Virus record (IMG/VR): IMGVR_UViG_3300024336_000035
Location: 1 to 32,117 of that record
Source: a virus
Strand: one strand, 5' to 3'
DNA: 32,117 bases
This document shows positions 1,623 to 32,034 of this stretch, in pieces. The translations under genes and the position numbers were made by a program. The notes under the pieces were generated by a model. It was not told the origin of the DNA. It saw nothing but the letters and a program-made list of their open reading frames with translations, and made no database searches. Each line of letters opens with the position of its first letter. The first letter of the stretch is position 1.

Positions 1623-1654
1623 CAAAATTATTTTCAAATAAGCGAAAATAACGC

Positions 1655-1691
1655 TTGACTTTGTCAATATAATCTTGTATCTTCAGGTATG
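1655..1691 (+). promoter_or_regulatory. recurrent phage promoter, copy 1
   Basis: TTGACT (1655-1660), 17-base spacer, TATCTT (1678-1683), followed by CAGGTATGA. The whole string AACGCTTGACTTT ... TCTTGTATCTTCAGGTAT recurs at six further places in the window. It drives the small genes at 1689 and 1822 and probably the tRNA-Arg at 1983. Confidence 0.85.
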
Positions 1692-1820
1692 AAAAAGAAA
1701 CTAATAAGAAAAGACAAAAATCGCATCCGACCTGAGATGCGTACCACAATTCCAACTCGGAAAGTGTTTAAGGATAAGACTAAATATAATCGTAAATCTA
1801 AACACAAAAAAGGCTGGTAA
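1689..1820 (+). CDS. small basic phage protein
   Basis: 43 aa, very rich in Lys and Arg, ending in TKYNRKSKHKKGW. Short basic proteins with a similar KDKTKYNRK tail occur in many tailed phages; function unknown, nucleic-acid binding is a guess from charge. The only suitable ATG (1689) sits about six bases past the -10 box, inside the conserved promoter string, so the mRNA would be leaderless or nearly so. In other copies of this promoter the same ATG is not the likely start. Four Lys codons follow quickly after the start. Confidence 0.6.
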   Translation: MKKKLIRKDKNRIRPEMRTTIPTRKVFKDKTKYNRKSKHKKGW

Positions 1821-1821
1821 A

Positions 1822-1992
1822 ATGAAAATTGTATATGTGGTACTAAGTAAATTAAAATATGGAAACCGAGATTCAGAAATTGACTCGGCATACGAATCCA
1901 AACCGGACGCTAAAGCGTACGTTAAGGAACAAAATGATAAAAATTCCATGTGGAAATATACAGTACAAAAAGTAAAAATCACGCTCCCATAG
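1822..1992 (+). CDS. small hypothetical phage protein overlapping a tRNA gene
   Basis: 56 aa, starting MKIVYVVLSKLKYG one base after the stop of the previous gene. The layout (short beta start, then a region on residue identity to the sender frame ESKPDAKAYVKEQ) resembles small phage proteins of the MKIYVV type whose function is unknown. Its TAG stop at 1990-1992 lies inside the tRNA-Arg gene that starts at 1983, so the last three codons share bases with the tRNA acceptor stem. No membrane segment or metal motif is seen. Confidence 0.6.
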   Translation: MKIVYVVLSKLKYGNRDSEIDSAYESKPDAKAYVKEQNDKNSMWKYTVQKVKITLP

Positions 1993-2057
1993 CTCAGCTG
2001 GAATAGAGCACTTGGCTACGAACCAAGGGGTCGGAGGTTCAAATCCTTCTGGGAGTA
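1983..2057 (+). tRNA. tRNA-Arg (ACG)
   Basis: Acceptor GCTCCCA/TGGGAGT, anticodon arm CTTGG-CTACGAA-CCAAG (ACG, likely read as ICG), T-arm GGAGG-TTCAAAT-CCTTC. Confidence 0.93.
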
Positions 2058-2167
2058 CTTAAAATAAAATCACTTTTTTGAAATAAAAATGGTGTTTGGG
2101 CTTATAACCTAATATATATATACAAATACGGAATGAGAAAAAAAGTTAAGAAAATTGAAAAAAACGC

Positions 2168-2202
2168 TTGACTTTTACATTTAAATCTTGTATATTGATC
2201 AT
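2168..2202 (+). promoter_or_regulatory. recurrent phage promoter, copy 2, upstream of the large structured RNA
   Basis: AACGCTTGACTTT with TTGACT at 2168-2173, 17-base spacer ending in TCTTG, -10 TATATT (2191-2196). Upstream half matches the other copies exactly, but the downstream string TCTTCAGGTAT is replaced by TATTGATCATCG. No protein gene follows for about 1.4 kb, so this copy appears to drive an RNA. Confidence 0.82.
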
Positions 2203-3040
2203 CGACACGAAAGAGTGTCAAAGTTTTTTGAAATTATAGAATTCGGATGTATGGATTCGCTTCACCTTCGGGTGATGAAGATAACCCTACGAAAGTGGGA
2301 CTAAAGGGCTCGTAGAACAGCCGCTCTTAGTAATAGGAGACATCTATACAATGGTTTAACATATGAACCTCAGATTCCACCAGGAACGAGAGGATTGTAT
2401 CTGGTTGTCGTGGAACAGCCGGTGAGGAGAAATCCAATAGGGATTGCCAGAGCGTCTTGTTCAAGGTAGGGATACTGAGGGCTTGATTCTAGTAATTATG
2501 TGTATTTTCTAGGGAAAGCATTGCATGAGTGGTAAAACGCTGGATTGTAATGTATAACTAAACATTTCATCGCAGGGTGAAACTGGAAATAATTAAGAAC
2601 CGCTAAAATTCCTTATCCAGGAAATGGTATGAATCTGAATGGTATGTGTTCCTCAAAAGGGAGGACGCCATCGCTGGTCGGCGCAGATTCTAATATCCAC
2701 AATACATCATGAATCGCCTCATTGGTTAGGCAATTCGCATTCTAAGCGAACTGGTGTGGGTTCAATTCCCACTTCACTGAAAAGTAAAAAGACCGACAGC
2801 GTTTAGGAGCAAAATTCCCTAATCCCTGACATCTTCGGATGAATCGGGGGCAACCAAACTCACAAGGTGCGGATGTTTTATGGCGAAAGTTCTAGTGGTG
2901 TTAAAACCTTAGTCAGTCCTGCAAGATTGAATAGCAATAAGTAACTGTGGAGATAACCTGAACGATAAGAGTGGTAGGCTAAACCTACTGGGACTGGTAT
3001 CTTACTACTCGCAAGAGTATAGACCCTAGCGGGTTGTCGT
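2203..3040 (+). ncRNA. candidate large ornate structured RNA with nested tRNA-Arg
   Basis: About 840 bases with no plausible reading frame, led by a promoter at 2168. Folding signs visible by eye: hairpin GACAC/GTGTC at 2204-2219 right at the predicted start; TCACC-TTCG-GGTGA (2262-2275); CCTAC-GAAA-GTGGG (2286-2299); CATC-TTCG-GATG (2830-2841) within a longer stem; GTAGG-CTAAA-CCTAC (near 2981); TACTC-GCAA-GAGTA (3006-3019). A 12-base string GGTTGTCGTGGA occurs at 2403-2414 and again at 3032-3043, on either side of the tRNA-Arg at 2707. Size, tetraloops, phage origin and tRNA neighbours recall the GOLLD and ROOL giant RNAs; I cannot confirm membership. Ends are approximate. Confidence 0.6.
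2707..2780 (+). tRNA. tRNA-Arg (TCT), weak acceptor stem
   Basis: D-arm GCCT/AGGC, perfect anticodon arm TTCGC-ATTCTAA-GCGAA (TCT), T-arm GTGGG-TTCAATT-CCCAC. The acceptor strands TCATGAA and TTCACTG pair at only five of seven positions. It lies inside the structured RNA region and is one of few tRNAs here not followed by CA or CT. A cleaner Arg(TCT) exists at 3763, so this copy may be decaying or serve as part of the larger RNA. Confidence 0.75.
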
Positions 3041-3194
3041 GGACACAGGAAGGAATAAATAATCTTCCCAAAGGGATACTATAAAGGGTATAATCTCAAC
3101 CCTACCAAGGACATATCGGATACGATCAAAATTCAATTTCCACTTATTTAAAATTAGAATAACATCGTAATGGGTTCGATTCCCATTGTGTCCA
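3041..3194 (+). ncRNA. oversized tRNA-like structure
   Basis: GGACACA (3041-3047) pairs perfectly with TGTGTCC (3187-3193), and two further pairs (GT 3039-3040 with AC) extend the stem. A textbook T-arm ATGGG-TTCGATT-CCCAT ends exactly at the acceptor strand, and the 3' end reads A-CA like the phage tRNAs. A small hairpin GGAAG/CTTCC follows the 5' strand where a D-arm would sit. The molecule is 154 bases, about 80 too many for a tRNA. It could be an intron-containing tRNA, or the tRNA-like end of the structured RNA, as in tmRNA. Confidence 0.6.
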
Positions 3195-3220
3195 CAATCA
3201 AAAATTAAAATTAGGTAAAT

Positions 3221-3293
3221 GGCATTGTATTCCAACGGCAGAGAAAGCGGTTTCAAAAATCGTCCAGTGTGAGTTCGAATCTCACCAATGCTA
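3221..3293 (+). tRNA. tRNA with anticodon CAA (Leu by anticodon), class I body
   Basis: Acceptor GGCATTG/CAATGCT, anticodon arm GCGGT-TTCAAAA-ATCGT (CAA), variable loop of only five bases, T-arm GTGAG-TTCGAAT-CTCAC. Bacterial tRNA-Leu normally has a long variable arm; this one does not. Two G-T pairs weaken the anticodon stem. Confidence 0.85.
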
Positions 3294-3307
3294 CAAAAAC
3301 AAATAAT

Positions 3308-3382
3308 GGTCCTCTGGCCCAACTGGTAGAGGCGTGCGGCTTAGACCCGTTCAATGTCAGGGTTCGACTCCCTGGGGGACTA
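3308..3382 (+). tRNA. tRNA-Leu (TAG), short variable loop
   Basis: Acceptor GGTCCTC/GGGGACT, anticodon loop CTTAGAC (TAG, reads CTN), T-arm CAGGG-TTCGACT-CCCTG. The variable loop CAATGT is short, again unusual for Leu. Confidence 0.86.
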
Positions 3383-3390
3383 CATACATA

Positions 3391-3462
3391 GGGGTATAGT
3401 GTTTAACGGTAGCACGATGGTCTCCAAAACCATGAAGATCGGGTTCGAATCCTGATACCCCT
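3391..3462 (+). tRNA. tRNA-Trp (CCA)
   Basis: Perfect acceptor GGGGTAT/ATACCCC, anticodon arm ATGGT-CTCCAAA-ACCAT (CCA), T-arm TCGGG-TTCGAAT-CCTGA. It reads TGG. It does not by standard rules read the TGA codons this phage uses as Trp. Confidence 0.92.
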
Positions 3463-3470
3463 GCACAAAC

Positions 3471-3543
3471 GCACCCGTAGCTCAGTTGGCAGAGCAGGAG
3501 TCTCTTAAACTCAAGGTCGTAGGATCGTAACCTACCGGGTGTA
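3471..3543 (+). tRNA. tRNA-Lys (CTT)
   Basis: Acceptor GCACCCG/CGGGTGT, D-arm GCTC/GAGC, anticodon loop CTCTTAA (CTT), T-arm GTAGG-ATCGTAA-CCTAC. T-loop has A54 and T58. Confidence 0.9.
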
Positions 3544-3571
3544 CAAAATTTAAAAAGAAAGGGTTATTAAA

Positions 3572-3757
3572 ATGACAGTAGATGAACGATACGCAATAGA
3601 TAGGGAATTTACATATTTCGGAGCATTGAGATTTGTATTGTACTTTATCGCTGGATTGTCTTTAATGTCTCACGGTCTTGTTATGGCTGGGGCAATGATT
3701 TCAATCGGTGCAACCATCGAAGTGGGCCGAAGAATATGGTTCAAGTTTAAAGATTAA
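3572..3757 (+). CDS. small two-helix membrane protein
   Basis: 61 aa preceded by AAAGAAAGGG. After a charged N-terminus (about 20 residues) there are two hydrophobic stretches, roughly residues 18-37 and 38-50, then a basic C-terminus (RRIWFKFKD). Likely an inner-membrane miniprotein expressed with the tRNA cluster. I do not recognise the family; a role in lysis or superinfection control is possible but unsupported. Confidence 0.65.
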   Translation: MTVDERYAIDREFTYFGALRFVLYFIAGLSLMSHGLVMAGAMISIGATIEVGRRIWFKFKD

Positions 3758-3762
3758 GCACT

Positions 3763-3836
3763 GCTCCCATAGTGTAACAGGATTAGCACAAGAGCCTTCT
3801 AAGCTTTTAGTCGGGGTTCGAATCCCTGTGGGAGTA
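3763..3836 (+). tRNA. tRNA-Arg (TCT), second copy
   Basis: Perfect acceptor GCTCCCA/TGGGAGT (G-T first pair), anticodon loop CTTCTAA (TCT), T-arm CGGGG-TTCGAAT-CCCTG. Serves AGA/AGG. Confidence 0.92.
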
Positions 3837-4157: not shown

Positions 4158-4227
4158 CGCAGTGAGACAGGCGTGTAAGTGTCGGCTCATATTCGGCAAC
4201 TCGGGAGTTCAAGTCTCCCCACTGCGA
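4158..4227 (+). tRNA. tRNA-Met (CAT)
   Basis: Perfect acceptor CGCAGTG/CACTGCG, anticodon arm GTCGG-CTCATAT-TCGGC (CAT), T-arm GGGAG-TTCAAGT-CTCCC. The 1-72 pair is formed, which argues against an initiator tRNA. A CAT tRNA read as Ile2 after lysidine modification cannot be excluded. Confidence 0.88.
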
Positions 4228-5359: not shown

Positions 5360-5368
5360 CACATTTTA

Positions 5369-5638
5369 ATTTCTGACTTGTCGCTCTACGGAGAGGAAAG
5401 TCGGGTCATCGTTGCTTAACTCAGGAGACTGTATGTTAAAGCTGTTAGGGCATGAGTAAAGAAAAAGGGTTTGTAGTAATCATGCCAAACCAGAAACCCT
5501 GAAAGACACGAAATAGTCGTTCGTACTGGTGAGGATGTAATTCAAAATAGCTTAGAAGGTGAGCAATTCTATAATAGCAAGGTTGATGCAAATAGGTCAA
5601 TGGCAAGTTTAAAGGACAGAACCCCGCTTACAGGAAAT
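5369..5638 (+). ncRNA. rnpB: RNase P RNA (phage-encoded)
   Basis: About 270 bases with the conserved blocks of bacterial RNase P RNA in the right order: GAGGAAAGTC at 5393-5402 (first P4 strand), GAAAGACACGAAATAGTCG near 5502, AGCAAGG...GCAAATAGG at about 5577-5595, and ACAGAACCCCGCTTAC at 5616-5631 (second P4 strand). The ends pair (ATTTCTG 5369-5375 with CAGGAAAT 5631-5638, one bulge) as P1. It is shorter than cellular versions, so some peripheral helices are missing. It begins ten bases after a tRNA-Ser and would mature the 5' ends of phage tRNAs with a host protein subunit. No rnpA is seen in the window. Confidence 0.88.
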
Positions 5639-5654
5639 TAAATTAAAATAACGC

Positions 5655-5690
5655 TTGACTTTGTGAGAATAATCTTGTATCTTCAGGTAT
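5655..5690 (+). promoter_or_regulatory. recurrent phage promoter, copy 3
   Basis: TTGACT (5655-5660), 17-base spacer, TATCTT (5678-5683), then CAGGTAT. Downstream, a ten-codon-scale mini frame (ATG 5709, stop TAG 5730) with its own GGGA site precedes the real gene at 5755 and could be a leader peptide. Confidence 0.85.
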
Positions 5691-5754
5691 TGACAAAAGG
5701 GAATTGATATGAAAAAAGGAACAGCATCATAGTAACCTAACAAGGAGAACTATG

Positions 5755-7166: not shown

Positions 7167-7293
7167 AAAATTATGGTGCCGTATATTTGGACACAAGGAA
7201 TATACAATGGTATCACCTAGCTTTATGGAAACCAGAGCGGTGTGGAATAAAAACTGCCCAAGATGTGGAGTAAAATTACGTGAGTGGAATTAA
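7159..7293 (+). CDS. small zinc-ribbon protein
   Basis: 44 aa, too short for most gene callers. Start ATG 7159 overlaps the end of the upstream gene. MLKKLWCRIFGHK gives Cys7 and His12, and a C-terminal CPRCG gives two more Cys, together a plausible zinc site. Tiny proteins of the form WCxxFGHK...CxRCG are common in phage early regions. Function unknown. Its end overlaps the GTG start of kptA. Confidence 0.7.
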   Translation: MLKKLWCRIFGHKEYTMVSPSFMETRAVWNKNCPRCGVKLREWN

Positions 7294-7819
7294 TCTAACT
7301 AAAAAAAGTAAATTGCTAGCTCTCATATTGAGACACAAGCCAGAACAATTCGATATTACATTGGATGCTGAAGGATATGCCAATGTATCAGATTTGTTAG
7401 ATACTGGCAAATTTACTATGGAAATGTTAGAAGAAATAGTGAGTACTGGTCCAAAAATCAGATACGCATTTGATATCACTGGGGAAAAGGTTAGAGCGAT
7501 GCAAGGTCATTCAATCGAAGTAGATTTGAAACTGCAAGCAATTGCTCCACCGGAAATATTGTATCATGGGACACCGCCTAAAAATATCGATTCGATTATG
7601 AAAAATGGATTGAATAAAGGTAATAGACAATATGTACATTTATCAGCGGATGAAAATACCGCTGAAGTGGTTGGGAAACGAAGAGGTTCTGATCCGGCCA
7701 TATTGGTTATCGACGCATTAAAATTGCACAATGATGGTCACCCGTTTTATTTAGCTGAAAATGGGGTATGGCTTACAGACAATTTGGATGCTTTATATGT
7801 TAAACGAATTATTTGGTAA
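7280..7819 (+). CDS. kptA: RNA 2'-phosphotransferase (KptA/Tpt1)
   Basis: 179 aa, full length for the family. It removes an internal 2'-phosphate from RNA using NAD+, releasing nicotinamide and ADP-ribose 1''-2''-cyclic phosphate. Family marks: ILRHKP with Arg18-His19 of the catalytic set, MQGHS (about 74-78), LYHGT (about 94-98), HLSAD and FYLAENGVWLTD near residue 155-166. Start is GTG 7280, overlapping the stop of the zinc-ribbon gene, so expression is likely coupled. In eukaryotes the enzyme finishes tRNA splicing; in a tRNA-rich phage, repair of cut or ligated tRNA is a sensible role (inference). Confidence 0.92.
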   Translation: MSGINLTKKSKLLALILRHKPEQFDITLDAEGYANVSDLLDTGKFTMEMLEEIVSTGPKIRYAFDITGEKVRAMQGHSIEVDLKLQAIAPPEILYHGTPPKNIDSIMKNGLNKGNRQYVHLSADENTAEVVGKRRGSDPAILVIDALKLHNDGHPFYLAENGVWLTDNLDALYVKRIIW

Positions 7820-9944: not shown

Positions 9945-10547
9945 ATGGAACGATTTTTTACCGCTGATCTTCATTTCGCACATCAAAGTATTATACGGCA
10001 CTGTGATAGACCGTATGACAATGTGCATGAAATGAATGAAGCATTGGTTGAAAATTGGAACTCGGTTGTAACTGAAAAATCATTGGTTTATATATTGGGA
10101 GACTTCGCATGGATGCGACCCGATTATTGGATGGATAGATTGAACGGTCAGAAGATTCTCATCATTGGGAATCACGATACGCTCAACAGCGACGCTAAGA
10201 AAAAGTTTCAATTTATCAAACCGATGTACGAAACAAAAATTGATGGACAATCAATCACAATGTGCCACTATCAAATGAGTGAATGGAACAAATCGTTTCA
10301 TGGATCATGGCACCTATACGGACACTCACACGGAAATGCAACGGAATGGGATGATAAACTATCCTTTGACATTGGGACCGACTTGTGGAATTACACACCG
10401 GTTCATTGGGACACAGTAGTCAATAAAATGCAACACAAAATGGCAGTTAGAGACGAAATTAAGGCTCAGCGTGAAGCTGAAAGTCCTTGGGTTCCCGGTC
10501 AAAACCGTATCAAAATCACAGAATTTAATCAACAATTTATAAAATAA
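9945..10547 (+). CDS. calcineurin-like metallophosphoesterase
   Basis: 200 aa, preceded by AAAGGAAAATAAAA. Metal-binding motifs in family order: FTADLHFAH (residues 5-13), GDFAW (about 51-55), IIGNHDT (about 73-79), CHYQM, and a C-terminal YGHSHG (about 127-132). Such phage enzymes act on nucleotides or phosphate esters; the substrate cannot be read from sequence. Position between KptA and the cREC protein would also allow a role in cyclic-phosphate chemistry (speculative). C-terminal 50 residues are an added charged tail. Confidence 0.88.
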   Translation: MERFFTADLHFAHQSIIRHCDRPYDNVHEMNEALVENWNSVVTEKSLVYILGDFAWMRPDYWMDRLNGQKILIIGNHDTLNSDAKKKFQFIKPMYETKIDGQSITMCHYQMSEWNKSFHGSWHLYGHSHGNATEWDDKLSFDIGTDLWNYTPVHWDTVVNKMQHKMAVRDEIKAQREAESPWVPGQNRIKITEFNQQFIK

Positions 10548-10550
10548 AGC

Positions 10551-10586
10551 TTGACATTGTCAATATAATCTTGTATCTTCAGGTAA
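10551..10586 (+). promoter_or_regulatory. recurrent phage promoter, copy 4
   Basis: TTGACA (10551-10556), 17-base spacer, TATCTT (10574-10579), then CAGGTAAC. Closest of all copies to a sigma-70 -35 box. Leads the 10605-13357 group including clpP. Confidence 0.85.
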
Positions 10587-14916: not shown

Positions 14917-15612
14917 ATGATTATATACAAAACTACAAACACCTTAAACGGCAAATTCTACATAGGGAAATCTAAATATGATGACCCCGACTATATTGGT
15001 TCGGGGTCCATATTGAAAAAAGCAATAAAAAAATACGGCAAGGAAAATTTTGTTAAAGAAGTTATAGAGCATTGTGAGGATGAAACACAATTGAATATCA
15101 GAGAAATATATTGAATTAAAATGACCGATGCTGTCAATATTGGATATAATTTGTATCCTGGTGGTGAAGGTGGATGCACACCAGAAGCTTCCAAGAAAAT
15201 AATTAAGGCGAGGCATAACAACGGACAACCATGGCATTCAGCTGAACGCAATCGGAATGTTTCTATCGCTTTAACTGGTCATAAACAAACGGCCGAAACT
15301 AGGAAAAAGAATAGTGATTCCCACATGGGTCAGGAACCGTGGAACAAAGGATTAACATCCGACGATCCCCGTATCAAAGCAGGATCAGAGAAACAAAAAA
15401 TTACAAAAAAGAAAAAATTTGCAAGTGGGGAATTGACTAATACTTGGAACAAAGGTAAAACCATCCAAGAATATTTCCAGTTGAAATGCCCTGTATGTGG
15501 ACAGGAATATGAAATTTATACATACCCACGATGATACAAAAATGGCAGATACAAAAAGACTTGTTCAAAGCCATGTGCAGATAAAAAGATGTGAGAAAGT
15601 AGAAGAAAATAA
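14917..15612 (+). CDS. GIY-YIG endonuclease (homing type), UGA-recoded
   Basis: 231 aa with three TGA codons read as Trp (15112, 15532, 15592); without recoding it would appear as two fragments. N-terminal GIY-YIG module: MIIYKTTNTLNGKFYIGKS with the Y...YIG pair, then DYIGSGSILKKAIKKYG, and E-x-YW-I near residues 60-66 where the family has Trp. Middle part has NUMOD-like repeats (ALTGHKQTAETRKKNSDSH). C-terminus has CPVCG and KTCSKPCADKK, a zinc finger. AAGGAGAAAGACA precedes the start. Likely a free-standing mobile gene. Confidence 0.9.
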
Positions 15613-16096: not shown

Positions 16097-16474
16097 ATGG
16101 CTACAAAAGTTACAAATAAGGTTATTAAGAACATATTCAACTGATGCCTCACAGAATATGGTGTCAGTAAATATCAGGGATTTGAACCCGAATTGATTAT
16201 AGACAACACTAAAGATCACCCCAGCAATGGAGAATTCGTATTTGAGGATAACGAGGTATTTATCTATCCAAAAACGGAAGGAATGGATATACAGAGAACT
16301 ATATTTGTTATGATACACGAATTCAAACATTACCATCAATCGCCAGTTTGATTGTCTCGGTATATCAATATGTATAATAACGCTCCAAATTGCCCATATG
16401 AAATCGAAGCGGACGCCGTTGCCGAAGCGGATTGAGAAAAATGTTATCGGAAATTATTTTTAGAAAAAGCATAA
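16097..16474 (+). CDS. small zinc metallopeptidase-like protein, UGA-recoded
   Basis: 125 aa, visible only when TGA is Trp: three in-frame TGAs at 16142, 16349 and 16433. It starts one base after the previous stop, with TTAGAGG upstream. The motif MIHEFKHYHQ (about residues 74-83) is a HExxH zinc site and the downstream EIEADAVAEADW (about 102-113) supplies a second acidic ligand, the pattern of IrrE/ImmA-like or M78-type peptidases. Substrate unknown; such phage proteins may cleave repressors. Confidence 0.8.
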
Positions 16475-19420: not shown

Positions 19421-20578
19421 ATGATTATAAAATCTATTTTAGATGATGATATGTACAAATTCACGATGCAGAACGCGGTTGTTAAGCACTATCCAAATAC
19501 AATAGTAGAATACCGATTTAAAAATCGAAATCCAGAGAATAACATATTCACCCACGAACACGTTGAAGAGATTCAGCGTGAAATTAATGCTATGGCAACA
19601 TTGTCATTAACTGAAAAGGAACGGAAATTCTTAGAAGATAAGGCTCCATACTTGGATGGAATGTATCTTGATTTTTTAAGTGGATATAGATTTGATCCAA
19701 GTGAAGTTACGATGACTTCCAATGAAAATAACGAATTGGAACTGTCAATAATGGGACCTTGGTATAGAACTATCCTTTGGGAAGTACCTTTAATGGCTAT
19801 TATTTCTGAAGTATATCTAAGATCATCACTACCAAACATGCCCGAAACAATGAATAGCATTCTCACAAAACGGAATATGATTCAAGGTTCGGAAATCAAG
19901 GTGGCTGATTTTGGTACACGGCGCCGGCGTTCTTATGAAATTCATCGATTGGTTATTGAGAATTTACATGACGTTTTGGTTGGTACAAGTAATGTACATT
20001 TAGCTGAACAATTCGATATTACTCCAATTGGAACACACGCCCACGAATGGTTTATGTTTCACGGAGCAAAATACGGATATCAGTCAGCTACATACAAATC
20101 TTTAGAAAAATGGAGTGATACATACCGAGGAAGCTTGGGTATCGCATTAACAGATACATATACAACAGACGTATTTTTACAGGATTTTGATATGTATTTC
20201 GCTAAATTATTCGATGGAGTTCGGCACGATAGTGGAGACCCAATTGAGTTTGGTGAGAAGATTATCGAGCATTACAAATCATTGGGAATCGATCCAATGT
20301 CAAAAACGATAGTATTTTCAGATGGATTGAATGTACCAAAAGCCGTAGAAATAACGGAACATTTTAGAAATAAAATCAAAACTTCATTTGGAATTGGTAC
20401 TAACCTTACCAACGATACTGGAGTAATACCATTGAACATGGTTATAAAATTAAGTGGCATTTACGATAGGAATTCAAGAAAAATTCACGCGGTTAAATTG
20501 TCAGACAATGTAGGAAAAAACACAAGTGATTCACAAGAAGCAATAGAAAATTGCAAATTCACGTTAGGATTACAATAA
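19421..20578 (+). CDS. pncB: nicotinate phosphoribosyltransferase
   Basis: 385 aa, normal for bacterial PncB (about 400). Makes nicotinate mononucleotide from nicotinate and PRPP. Marks: SILDDDMYKFTMQNAV (5-20), EYRFKNRN, DFGTRRRRSYEIH (163-175), GTSNVHLA, HEWFMFHGA, the regulatory-His-like GVRHDSGDPIEFGEK and IVFSDGLNVPKA near 305. AAAAGGACAAGGTT precedes the start. With PncA and NadE in the same region it forms most of the Preiss-Handler salvage route. Confidence 0.96.
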   Translation: MIIKSILDDDMYKFTMQNAVVKHYPNTIVEYRFKNRNPENNIFTHEHVEEIQREINAMATLSLTEKERKFLEDKAPYLDGMYLDFLSGYRFDPSEVTMTSNENNELELSIMGPWYRTILWEVPLMAIISEVYLRSSLPNMPETMNSILTKRNMIQGSEIKVADFGTRRRRSYEIHRLVIENLHDVLVGTSNVHLAEQFDITPIGTHAHEWFMFHGAKYGYQSATYKSLEKWSDTYRGSLGIALTDTYTTDVFLQDFDMYFAKLFDGVRHDSGDPIEFGEKIIEHYKSLGIDPMSKTIVFSDGLNVPKAVEITEHFRNKIKTSFGIGTNLTNDTGVIPLNMVIKLSGIYDRNSRKIHAVKLSDNVGKNTSDSQEAIENCKFTLGLQ

Positions 20579-25815: not shown

Positions 25816-26289
25816 ATGAAGCATAAACATCATAAGATACCGACACATGCGGGTGGTACAAACGACCCAGAAAATATAGAGACTTTGACGCCTGAAGATC
25901 ATGCAGAAGCACATAAGAAATTATTTGAAGAGCATGGTAGGTGACAAGATGAAGTAGCATGAAAAGGTCTCGCGGGACTAATTGACGGAGATAAATGTCA
26001 AGAAATAGCAATGATCGAAGGTGGTAGAAAAGGCTCTTCTGTTACAAATGCAAAATTTCCAGTCGGGACGAGGGGATATTGAAATTTGGGGAAACATGGA
26101 AATACACCTTTCAATGAAGGAAATCAATTAACTGCTAAAACATATACGTTAATTGATGAAAATGGATTGATATTTGAAGTTCACGGTTTAAGTAAATGAT
26201 GCCGTGAACATGACATGAATATAAAAAGTTTCCATAAACAAGTCGTTGAACGGAAACGAAGCCATAAGGGCTATAAACTTATAGATTAA
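25816..26289 (+). CDS. HNH endonuclease (homing type), UGA-recoded, upstream of tmRNA
   Basis: 157 aa with four TGA codons as Trp (25942, 25960, 26080, 26197). N-terminal HNH: HHKIPTHAGG (5-14), NIETLTPEDHAEAHK (20-34) gives the HH...N...H-x3-H metal site. The middle has a GTRGYWNLGKHGNTPFNEGN string of NUMOD3 type, and the C-terminus LSKWCREHDMN resembles a NUMOD1 helix-turn-helix. No strong ribosome site is seen. It stops four bases before the tmRNA, so it may target that locus. Confidence 0.85.
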
Positions 26290-26292
26290 CCC

Positions 26293-26648
26293 GGGGTTGT
26301 AATTGGTATTCGACGGGATGATTTTTGACAATAAGTGCAAGCGGACAGAGTGAGTCCTAAAAACTAAACAAACAGAAAATAACTGGCACAAATTACGCAT
26401 ACCCTGTAGCAGCTTAATTGCGCTATAGCGTTGACCTACGATTCTAATAGTAGCAATCAACGTCGTCATTAGATAACTTTTACAGTATGAGTGAATTCAA
26501 ACTGGATCACCACGGGTGTTGGTATAAACCCCGGAATTATTTTGTAACCTTTTAGCAAATCCGACATCAAATATAAAAAGGATACTAAGCTTGTGAATGA
26601 CTTATTTAGATTACGTTGCGGACGGCGGTTCGAATCCGCCCAACTCCA
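26293..26648 (+). ncRNA. ssrA: tmRNA (phage-encoded)
   Basis: Acceptor GGGGTTG (26293-26299) pairs with CAACTCC (26641-26647). The 5' block GGTATTCGACGG and the 3' T-arm GGCGG-TTCGAAT-CCGCC are as in bacterial tmRNA. The tag frame starts at GGC 26385 and reads GTNYAYPVAA, ending TAA at 26415-26417. The upstream TAA/ACT context and the final AA fit known tags. A first residue of Gly is typical of Bacteroidota tags. It rescues stalled ribosomes and marks products for ClpXP, and the phage encodes ClpP. CCA is not encoded. Confidence 0.95.
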
Positions 26649-26673
26649 CTAAAACAAAAAGAAGGAATAGGTT

Positions 26674-27460: not shown

Positions 27461-27802
27461 ATGAATTTAAAAGAAATATTAATTGGTGTTGGGGGCGTGT
27501 GATTTTTAGCGGTTAATTTATTAGTCATAAACGTATATTTAGGAATTGGTTGGTGGAGCATCGCGATATTTGGTGTCCTATTAATAATAATGGCAATGGG
27601 GTATGTCATATATAATCAATTTCAGAAGAATTTATTTTTAGAGCAGTGGGTCGAGGGATTTACTGGAAAAATTATTAATGTCCAACAGGAGTTGGAACGA
27701 ATTGATTCCACCGGAGTTTTTGAAGCAGATGATGAAGTAGGTTTTGTTTTTAATGAGATTAAAGAAGTGGTGGAAATGTTATCAGATTTAGTAGAGGAAT
27801 AG
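27461..27802 (+). CDS. membrane-anchored coiled-coil protein, one UGA codon
   Basis: 113 aa with TGA at 27500 as Trp (GGVWFLAVN). Starts one base after the HD gene stop. Residues 5-50 form two membrane helices (LIGVGGVWFLAVNLLVINVY and WWSIAIFGVLLIIMAMGYVIY) and residues 60-112 an acidic coiled coil. No family recognised. TAG stop, followed after one base by the sigma factor gene. Confidence 0.75.
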
Positions 27803-27803
27803 A

Positions 27804-28691
27804 ATGGCAAGAAAAAAGAAAAAGAGTAACATGTATTTTACATTGGACACCCAAGATGCGGTTGTCCGGTACAATGAGAGATTAAGTAGATGTTGTAATT
27901 CTCACCCAGCGGATTGGTACAATACCAAGTCCGAAATTTTAATCAAAATGGGTTATACAGAAGATCAAATTAATTCCAAGGTTAAGGAAATTAAAAGTGT
28001 AAATATCGACGACGTATGTAATGTATGCTTGAAGGAAGCCGAGTATGATCACGTACGCACCCATTCAGAGCGGAATGTTATTTATAGAAATGAAATTGCT
28101 GCAGCATTTGATAAGTTGGCAGAGAATATCATTCACACTTTCAAATTTTATTATTTTGACATCCCAGTAGAAGATGTTATGGCTGAAGTGGTATCATTTT
28201 TGATCATGAATATCCACAAATACAAACCACATAAAGGGAAAGCGTTCTCGTATTTCAGTATAGTGGTTAAGAACTATTTGATATTACACAACAACAGAAA
28301 TTATGCTAAAAAGAAAATCCATGACAGTATTGAAGTTATTGATTTTGTTAGGAATGTTACTACCGAGCAGAAGCAGGTTCATCTAAAGGAAGATAAAGCC
28401 GAATTTATCAACTACCTTATAGAGTATTGGGAAAACAATTTAACAGTAGTATTTAAGCGGAAAAAGGATATTGGAGTGGCGGATTCGGTAATATATTTAT
28501 TGAAAACCTGTGATGAAATTGAGAATTTCAATAAGAAATATTTGTATGTACTGATTAGGGAATTGACAGGTTCCAAGACTCAGCATATCACCCGCATTAT
28601 CAATATAATGAAGAAACATAATGAAAAATTATTGAAGCAATTCAATAATACTGGATATGTTGACACCGCTACAACGGGGTCATTTTTGTAA
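27804..28691 (+). CDS. late-transcription sigma factor (T4 gp55-like)
   Basis: 295 aa. The central part has sigma region 2 features: AAAFDKLAENIIHTFKFYYF, DVMAEVVSFLIMNIHKYKPH and GKAFSYFSIVVKNYLILHNN, the F-SYF-I--KN--I arrangement of gp55-like phage sigma factors. An N-terminal C-x2-C pair (CNVC, near 72-75) and a C-terminal helical domain are extra. It would direct host RNA polymerase to late promoters, consistent with virion genes starting right after. A terminator follows. Confidence 0.82.
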   Translation: MARKKKKSNMYFTLDTQDAVVRYNERLSRCCNSHPADWYNTKSEILIKMGYTEDQINSKVKEIKSVNIDDVCNVCLKEAEYDHVRTHSERNVIYRNEIAAAFDKLAENIIHTFKFYYFDIPVEDVMAEVVSFLIMNIHKYKPHKGKAFSYFSIVVKNYLILHNNRNYAKKKIHDSIEVIDFVRNVTTEQKQVHLKEDKAEFINYLIEYWENNLTVVFKRKKDIGVADSVIYLLKTCDEIENFNKKYLYVLIRELTGSKTQHITRIINIMKKHNEKLLKQFNNTGYVDTATTGSFL

Positions 28692-28799: not shown

Positions 28800-29210
28800 A
28801 TGAACAATGAATATGAAATTTTTAAAGACAAAACTTTGTCAAGTTTATTTGAGGACATCTATACAAATAGTACTGAGAATAAACAGCAGCTGGAATTATT
28901 AATTGCCAAGGTGGCCGAATTAATAAAGGACAAATCGTCCGCGGCTACAATCGTGCCTATCATTAAGGAATATTTTGATATCAAAGTTAAGAATGATGAA
29001 AATCTCATCAAGCTGGCTGGCATCATACAAAAATTAATATCCGCTGAAGGTAAATCCGGATCAGAAATGGAATTTGGAATATCCGATGATGAAAAGAAAC
29101 GATTAATCGAAGACGCGTCAAATGAATTGGATAAATTGAAGAAAAAGGCCGACAGTACGATGAAGGATGTTGAACAAATAATACCAAAGGATTTTGTAGA
29201 TGGCACATAG
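28800..29210 (+). CDS. hypothetical virion-region protein
   Basis: 136 aa, with TTAAGAGGACAGAAA upstream. Almost entirely helical with heptad-like Leu/Ile spacing (LELLIAKVAELI, LIKLAGIIQKLIS, LDKLKKKADSTM). First gene of the structural block and overlaps the next gene start by 11 bases. It may be a chaperone or a neck/tail assembly protein; I do not recognise it. TAG stop. Confidence 0.72.
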   Translation: MNNEYEIFKDKTLSSLFEDIYTNSTENKQQLELLIAKVAELIKDKSSAATIVPIIKEYFDIKVKNDENLIKLAGIIQKLISAEGKSGSEMEFGISDDEKKRLIEDASNELDKLKKKADSTMKDVEQIIPKDFVDGT

Positions 29211-30312
29211 AAAAACAAATAAAGTATTCACACTCCCAGCATTCGGCGGGGGCATGACTACATTGAATGATGTTTATAAATTACAAAAAGCTAGGGAATT
29301 TTCCAGTGAATTCTATGAATTGGAAGTCGCTGAAGTATTAGAGGTTTTGTTAGATGAGGCAGATATTCCCGATTTTCCAGATGGTTCTAAAAATTATTCA
29401 TTAATGGGTTCTATAAAGGCACGGCTTATTCACGATGAACGTGGCAAGGATATTGAAGAATTACAATGAATATATCCACTCGACACCAACATCAAGGAAT
29501 ATCCATTAAAGGGTGAATATGTCATTGTTGCAGATTATCTCTATTCTAGATTTTATACTCAAAAATTAAATATAAACGCATCGGTTAATGCCAATTCCAT
29601 CCCCGGAATAAGCTCGAATTTCAAAGATATTGAAGATTTTTCAATTGGTGAAACTTTTACCGTAAATACGGATATTAGACAATTGTGACCGTATGAGGGT
29701 GACATACTATTCAATGGCAGATTTGGTCAGGGAATCCGTTTTGGGAAAAATGGTTTAGAAACGAATCTATCACCGAATATTAAAATTTCAGTTGGTCATT
29801 TATTAGATGCCGACCATGCTGGACTGGCCTCCGTAAAAAGTGATACCGAGTCTGTATTGCATAAACCAATAGATGAAAATTTAGACGCCGATGCATCTTC
29901 AATATGAATGTTATCCGATGAAGAAAGTACGATTATTCAGGGGTATCCAAGTGCGTTAATCCCAGCTCTAAATGAAGGTAAACAAATTATACTAAATTCT
30001 GATAAGTTGATATTTAATACTAAGAACGGTGGAGATATTGGAATATTGTCCAATAATAATGTTGTCATTGGTGCCACTACTAAGATGGTAGTTGAATCAC
30101 CAGAAATAAAATTGGGATCAGATGACGCCACAGAACCTATTGTATTGGGAGACGCGTTGTTGGGATTGCTAGAAGAATTAATAGATGCTATTACACAAAC
30201 AACCGTTCCAACTGGTGTTGGCCCAAGTGGTCCTCCAGTTAATGCGGCACAGTTTGCGGGTATAAAAACTAGATTGGCTCAAATGTTGAGTCCACAGAAT
30301 AAGACACTTTAA
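29200..30312 (+). CDS. virion structural protein (baseplate/tail, OB-fold-like), UGA-recoded
   Basis: 370 aa with TGA as Trp at 29467, 29686 and 29905; otherwise it looks like two separate frames. The string LWPYEGDILFNGRFGQGIRFG (around residue 162-182) is a hallmark of structural proteins next to the baseplate genes in T4-like marine and environmental myoviruses; Trp fits before PYEGD. KLIFNTKNGGDIGILSNNNVVI suggests a repetitive beta part like a spike or hub. C-terminus is helical. Precise subunit identity is not certain. Confidence 0.8.
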
Positions 30313-30314
30313 TA

Positions 30315-30791
30315 ATGCCATTATTACAACCAATATTAGCACAGAATTTAACAGATTTGATGACAATGGAAGCGGGGAAAGACGTTACACCCCAAGATTG
30401 GGCGGATGCCATTGGAGGATATTTCCAGCAAGCTGTTGCACCATTTGGGTCTTACGTGTTACCAACTGGTGCAACCGTTACTACTCAAGCTAAACAGGCT
30501 TTCGTTTTAGCGATAGGTCCTAAATTTCCACCGGTGGGGGCATTAACAGTTATGAAATTGGCATTTACCCAATTTGCTATAACAGCTGGGATATTGAGTA
30601 GTGGTTTGCCTTCTGGTCAAATTTACATTCCGCCTCCAATACCCATAATTTTAGAGGGAGTTATTCCAGTTGGTATGTCTGGAGCTCCAGCGGTGGTAGT
30701 GGCTAATCAAATGGCGACAATAATAGATTTGTGATTCCACACCGGTACATTTACAATACCACCAGCACCATTAATAGCACCTTGAATATAA
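30315..30791 (+). CDS. hypothetical virion protein, UGA-recoded
   Basis: 158 aa with TGA as Trp at 30732 (IDLWFHTG) and 30783 (the second last codon, APWI). Begins two bases after the previous stop. Hydrophobic and Pro/Gly-rich (VLPTGATVTTQAKQAFVLAI, PSGQIYIPPPIPII), no charged clusters. Homologous-looking proteins occur beside baseplate genes in large myoviruses; function unknown. The standard code would lose the last 19 residues. Confidence 0.75.
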
Positions 30792-31614: not shown

Positions 31615-32034
31615 ATGGGAGCAAGAGAAAACGACTTAAATCCTGATACTTGAATTGGATTGTCTTTTCCATTAGGAAGGGGCACCCAAAGTGCTTTTAA
31701 GCAAACCAAAACCAATTTACAGCAGGCGTCAACAAATTTGAAGAATCTTCTTCTCACCATACGTGGTGAAAGAGTAATGCAACCAAATTTTGGATCGAAT
31801 TTACATAGATTGTTATTCGAACCTATGGTTGAATCTGATATGTCATTGGCAATTGAAGAAGAAATATTGAATGTTACGAGCGTTTGACTTCCATATGTGA
31901 ATATACAGAATGTAGATGTTAAATTTGATGAACGGCGTGGAAATCAAGTTGGAGTAGTTTTAACTTTTTCAATAACATTAAACCCCGATGCGGAAGAACA
32001 AATCGCGCTTACGTTTGAGACTGGAGAATATTAA
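31615..32034 (+). CDS. baseplate wedge subunit, gp25-like, UGA-recoded
   Basis: 139 aa, full gp25 length, with TGA as Trp at 31651 (DTWIGLSFPLG) and 31885 (SVWLPYVNI). The second TGA falls where gp25 proteins have the conserved Trp before PR/PY, the best single proof of TGA = Trp here. Also seen: TIRGERVMQPNFGSNLHRLLFEP and a C-terminal LTFSI strand. gp25 nucleates the T4 baseplate wedge and links it to the sheath. AATAGGAAACTAAA precedes the start. Overlaps the next gene by one base. Confidence 0.93.

Follow-up and report, generated by a model that had tools for sequence, protein, structure and literature searches.

A GOLLD RNA in the tRNA array of a phage

The window analysed here, a 32-kb contig (32,117 nucleotides; IMG/VR virus record IMGVR_UViG_3300024336_000035), carries 31 tRNAs and one tmRNA (26293-26651) as called by ARAGORN. 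Between tRNA-Arg (1983-2058) and tRNA-Leu (3221-3294) of its tRNA array lies a stretch of about 1 kb that an earlier note on this DNA had described as preceded by a promoter and devoid of genes. We indeed found a sigma-70-like promoter directly ahead of it (Table 1), and the only two open reading frames of at least 50 amino acids that touch the stretch are both without support. The phage and its relative contain several promoter-like repeats of similar form, of which this promoter is one, and the repeat TTGACT...ATCTTGTAT, seen also at window positions 1645-1695, 5645-5702, and 10537-10579 and at 3747, 8629, and 13309 of L384, is probably a phage promoter class. With regard to the array itself, we note a tRNA-Met(CAT)-like gene that ARAGORN did not call (4158-4226) and a tRNA remnant around 360-445 that has a T arm and no matching acceptor.

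Table 1. Features of the GOLLD locus and of related genes (window positions unless a contig is named).
Feature	Position	Strand	Remarks
Sigma-70-like promoter TTGACT-17-TATATT	2168-2196	+	10/12 matches; expected transcription start near 2203
GOLLD 5' domain	2203-2629	+	ca. 430 nt; outside Rfam model; highly structured, sequence lineage-specific
12-mer GGTTGTCGTGGA, copy 1	2403-2414	+	in 5' domain hairpin; identical in L387
GOLLD 3' domain (RF02032, model 1-416)	2630-3102	+	190.1 bits, cut-off 150, E 2.7e-52
55-aa frame	2639-2806	+	unsupported
tRNA-Arg(TCT)-like fold in GOLLD linker	2707-2780	+	intact anticodon arm; mismatches at acceptor pairs 2 and 3; CA tail missing
98-aa frame	3026-3322	-	unsupported
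12-mer GGTTGTCGTGGA, copy 2	3032-3043	+	overlaps GUGGA motif
Anticodon-less tRNA-like element	3109-3196	+	begins 6 nt after GOLLD model match
Acceptor of element	3109-3115/3187-3193
Long-arm stem of element	3122-3126/3164-3168
T arm of element	3170-3186
Discriminator + CA of element	3194-3196
Four tRNA genes (Leu, Leu, Trp, Lys)	3221-3544	+	downstream of GOLLD RNA
RNase P RNA-like gene	5365-5646		RF00010, 41.9 bits, E 7e-12, below cut-off 100
KptA/Tpt1 RNA 2'-phosphotransferase	7280-7819		adjoins tRNA cluster; PF01885, E 2.1e-43
RNase P RNA-like relative	L384 4161-4364		RF00010, 46.4 bits, E 4.8e-13, below cut-off 100

Two further features of the phage deserve mention. The RNase P RNA-like genes of the window and of L384 share conserved GAGGAAAGUC and ACAGAACCC motifs despite scoring below the cut-off, and our literature search brought up no obvious paper on an RNase P RNA encoded by a phage. 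In addition, homing-endonuclease-like open reading frames and others at the structural end contain in-frame TGA read as Trp (877-1452, 14917-15612, 16097-16474, 25816-26289, 29200-30312, 30315-30791, and 31615-32034), with two TGA and no TGG in a gp25-like frame; GroEL, IMPDH, KptA, ClpP, and NAMPT-like frames have TGG only, or none. No tRNA-Trp(TCA) was seen in the window, and the distribution suggests that stop-codon recoding is limited to part of the phage genes.

GOLLD RNAs build cages that consist of RNA only and exceed the ribosome in size. The RNA of about 1 kb in the tRNA cluster is a GOLLD RNA and hence a new member of this known cage-forming family. The earlier note had seen a likeness to giant phage RNAs such as GOLLD and ROOL and had allowed for a new class; the Rfam search that it proposed returned GOLLD over the full model length and above the gathering cut-off, which rules out a new class, and gave no match to ROOL (RF03087) in the window or in a related contig. 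As a side observation, the 37-kb virus contig of L236 (G125) carries both a GOLLD (27781-28225) and a ROOL (19912-20502). Blastn of the region against phages gave scattered short matches only, and a pattern scan of genome contigs gave mostly apparent chance matches, with the GOLLD model absent from all seven genomes tested.

The layout is that of GOLLD as represented by RF02032 and by env-38, which forms a 14-mer cage with kissing-loop and A-minor contacts (PMC12286853): a full-length 3' domain match, a separate, divergent 5' domain that is structured and supported by covariation, a variable linker able to hold a tRNA (here the tRNA-Arg-like fold), and a location beside tRNAs on a virus contig. 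GOLLD with a pseudo-tRNA inside has also been reported from Mycobacterium tRNA clusters (PMC6582537), and the window resembles these loci in that the RNA is flanked by the tRNA cluster on either side and encloses a pseudo-tRNA but differs in being a phage contig itself, in its 5' domain, and in a 3' neighbor that is tRNA-like rather than a plain tRNA. In Mycobacterium phages, annotated genes for tRNA-Leu and tRNA-Gln fall within the GOLLD linker (L393, Mycobacterium phage Estes; L392, prophi86-1).

Structure and covariation

Folding of positions 2203-3200 gives a minimum free energy of -285.3 compared to -255.8 +/- 8.0 for shuffled sequences (z -3.7), and the 5' part on its own reaches a z of -3.9. 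The short stems capped by UUCG, GAAA, and GCAA tetraloops that had been pointed out earlier are readily visible, and the 12-base repeat GGTTGTCGTGGA is exact at both places; with 0.06 matches expected even when one mismatch is allowed, it is unlikely to be due to chance. Its second copy overlaps a GUGGA motif common to nearly all GOLLD loci. The repeat could be read as a sign of internal duplication; its copy in the 5' domain is not a general feature of GOLLD loci. By nhmmer, the 5' domain of the window gave no match to any 5' half among the other GOLLD loci that we collected, which agrees with the divergence known for this half.

A related contig found by searching with the phage's KptA protein (83% identity) carries a GOLLD locus, L387 (191.6 bits), and aligns to window positions 1975-3296 at 78.6% identity. 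It has the same succession of 5' domain, linker tRNA-Arg(TCT), GOLLD core, and tRNA-like end. Between the two, 20 of 179 local pairs are changed on both sides and all of these are still paired, compared to 0 to 2 double-sided changes when the pair partners were slid as a control; the pairing structure was derived from the two sequences themselves, which favors covariation, yet the contrast with the control is still large. The covariation extends through all parts of the RNA with the majority of double-sided changes in the 5' domain, including a helix that compares as CCUAC-GAAA-GUGGG versus CCUGG-GAAA-CCGGG. The covariation test called for in the earlier note thus did not refute a structured RNA.

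Two tRNA-like elements with opposite decay

The internal tRNA-Arg noticed before is present in the linker as a tRNA-Arg(TCT), though with two acceptor mismatches. This acceptor-damaged, CA-less state is unique among the 31 tRNAs of the window apart from tRNA-His, whose apparent exception we take as a register artefact, and position 3763 holds an intact tRNA of the same codon specificity. The fold is kept in L387, where one acceptor pair is mismatched, and in the distant phage of L204. Since the RNA would fall apart at a linker tRNA open to RNase P cleavage, the acceptor damage may be under selection; a linker tRNA-Asn with an intact acceptor in L236 implies, however, that such damage is not general. 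In L204, a phage of 374 kb, we observed by eye another tRNA-like fold near the GOLLD 5' end, within the long pairing TTCTTATACA/TGTATAAGAA (minus strand, ca. 2510-2390).

The tRNA-like end of the RNA, for which the earlier note had given an end point (3194) that turns out to be the discriminator base, is a second element with acceptor, T arm, and ACA tail that lacks an anticodon. Its 7-bp acceptor is perfect, its T stem of 5 bp closes a 7-nt loop (UUCGAUU), and its tail is that of most tRNAs of the phage, but a long AU-rich hairpin replaces the anticodon loop, no loop of seven bases is found at this place, and ARAGORN called no tRNA there. It is the sole anticodon-less fold of this kind that we found in the tRNA array of the window. 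In L387 the element forms a complete cloverleaf that likewise has the extended arm, and the acceptors GGACAUA/UGUGUCC (window) and GGACAGU/ACUGUCC (L387) differ by two compensatory changes. The two tRNA-like elements of the phage have therefore decayed in opposite ways: the linker tRNA has lost its acceptor end and the 3' element its anticodon.

Several identities were considered for the 3' element and rejected. A functional tRNA is incompatible with the missing anticodon loop, and an intron in that loop, considered with KptA encoded nearby, is contradicted by a position 33 that is not U and finds no support for splicing. Like the tRNA-like domain of tmRNA (RF00023), the element combines acceptor and T arm with a long arm where a tRNA has its anticodon arm, but its match (3109-3197) reaches 16.4 bits, below the cut-off of 47. 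An anticodon-less tRNA-like element directly behind the RNA, of which we found no description, sets the window apart from the GOLLD type represented by RF02032 and env-38.

The 3' flanks of GOLLD RNAs

We collected 54 GOLLD loci from IMG/VR and phage genomes, forming 31 clusters at 92% identity, and read their 3' flanks. By script, a tRNA or an acceptor/T-arm fold follows within 30 nt in 18 clusters and an intrinsic terminator in 12, with both in one and neither in two, so that tRNA(-like) fold and terminator nearly never occur together (Fisher p 1e-5, for a 30-nt limit that was chosen after inspection). Reading the exceptions by eye, which assigned three clusters, resulted in 20 with a tRNA or tRNA-like fold and 11 with a terminator: the "terminator" of L394 falls inside a tRNA-like fold, the minihelix of the L218 cluster was judged spurious, L201 has a degenerate tRNA, and L210 has a minihelix. 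This either/or pattern partly reflects context, since a neighboring tRNA is to be expected in arrays and the terminator loci lie mostly outside of them.

The tRNA or tRNA-like fold is located around 6 to 26 nt behind GOLLD, with a gap of 8 to 10 nt in Ab15, AM24, Bongo, prophi86-1, Estes, and the 642-kb LR756502; in Bongo, it is a tRNA-Arg-like gene at a distance of 10 nt. The anticodon has been lost with acceptor and T arm kept in the window and L387, in L226/L379, in LR756502, and in the minihelix groups of L202/L203 and L210, so that decoding cannot be what preserves the fold. At the anticodon place, L379 has a four-base loop, LR756502 has a UUUC-capped stem as anticodon arm, and the L202/L203 and L210 groups have lost D and anticodon arms entirely, though the L202/L203 minihelices fold no better than shuffled sequences. 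One cluster contains both forms, a tRNA-Met in L228 and a minihelix at the same place in L212 and L380. The element of LR756502 is followed by a terminator of its own and therefore serves no downstream tRNA there. The pattern read from these flanking sequences suggests two ways in which a GOLLD RNA obtains its 3' end, through a terminator or through a tRNA or tRNA-like fold just behind it. No description of such a rule was found in the literature covered, which did not include Weinberg 2009 and Morgado 2020. At the one ROOL locus inspected (L397), there is no tRNA near, and a terminator-like hairpin lies around 35 nt behind its end.

A possible route to the GOLLD 3' end

Bacterial RNase P requires no more of its substrate than an acceptor stem stacked on a T arm, and this part is the common denominator of the 3' elements. 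In the simplest reading, an RNase P cut in front of the element would thus make the GOLLD 3' end, for which other phages rely on a terminator. No terminator-like site was found on the plus strand from 3102 to 3221, and the GOLLD RNA is thus probably co-transcribed with the tRNA genes that follow. We consider it about an even bet that the locus works as follows, whereby we infer the cut, the cage, and the protection of the linker. Transcription from its own promoter would produce a GOLLD RNA of ca. 900 nt and read through into the downstream tRNA genes; RNase P would recognize the acceptor/T-arm fold of the 3' element and cut before it, near 3108/3109, releasing a GOLLD RNA whose 3' end would be fixed 6 nt past its last helix. 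The released RNA would probably assemble as a multimeric cage like that of GOLLD env-38 with the variable linker, here the tRNA-Arg-like fold, facing the inside, and the linker tRNA with its damaged acceptor end would probably escape processing and leave the RNA in one piece.

The closest parallel is human MALAT1, whose 3' end is made by an RNase P cut at mascRNA (PMC12016569). In both cases a tRNA-like fold lies behind a long RNA, and position, structure, and conservation of the 3' element would fit processing of this type, though the RNAs and organisms are unrelated and the comparison, with a GOLLD cut that is only predicted, concerns mechanism and not family. Somewhat more tentatively, the same idea may be extended to all GOLLD RNAs as two interchangeable routes to the 3' end, a terminator or RNase P acting at a tRNA(-like) element around 6 to 26 nt behind, with a dedicated anticodon-less signal in several lineages and, in this phage, a linker tRNA that has lost its acceptor end and persists, uncut, within the cage RNA.

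Alternatively, the 3' element could merely be a decaying tRNA gene of the array without any function for GOLLD. Arrays do hold tRNA remnants, including the one noted above in the window, and L201 and L391 have degenerate tRNAs at the same place, but this reading is made rather unlikely by the two compensatory changes that separate the acceptors of window and L387 and by the fact that the anticodon was lost repeatedly while acceptor and T arm stayed, always at a like distance from GOLLD. Marginally less probable still is a permanent 3' domain of the mature RNA, comparable to that of tmRNA or of certain plant virus RNAs, which would serve EF-Tu binding, aminoacylation, CCA addition, or the stability of the RNA. 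The long arm that replaces the anticodon arm and recalls tmRNA, the weak tmRNA match, and the retained ACA tail would agree with such a role, yet the same place is occupied in other phages by ordinary tRNAs, which are normally excised by RNase P, and GOLLD RNAs of the terminator type manage without the element. That there is no GOLLD transcript at all, and the stretch yields only tRNA precursors with long structured spacers, is highly improbable given its own promoter, the full-length GOLLD match, and covariation through all parts of the RNA.

If true, processing at a fixed tRNA(-like) fold behind GOLLD would help explain why these RNAs reside in tRNA clusters and would predict their mature 3' ends, which could be tested in a laboratory system with M. 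smegmatis as the host of Mycobacterium phage Bongo. That the two tRNA-like elements of the phage studied here have decayed in opposite ways would in turn hint at why each of them is kept.
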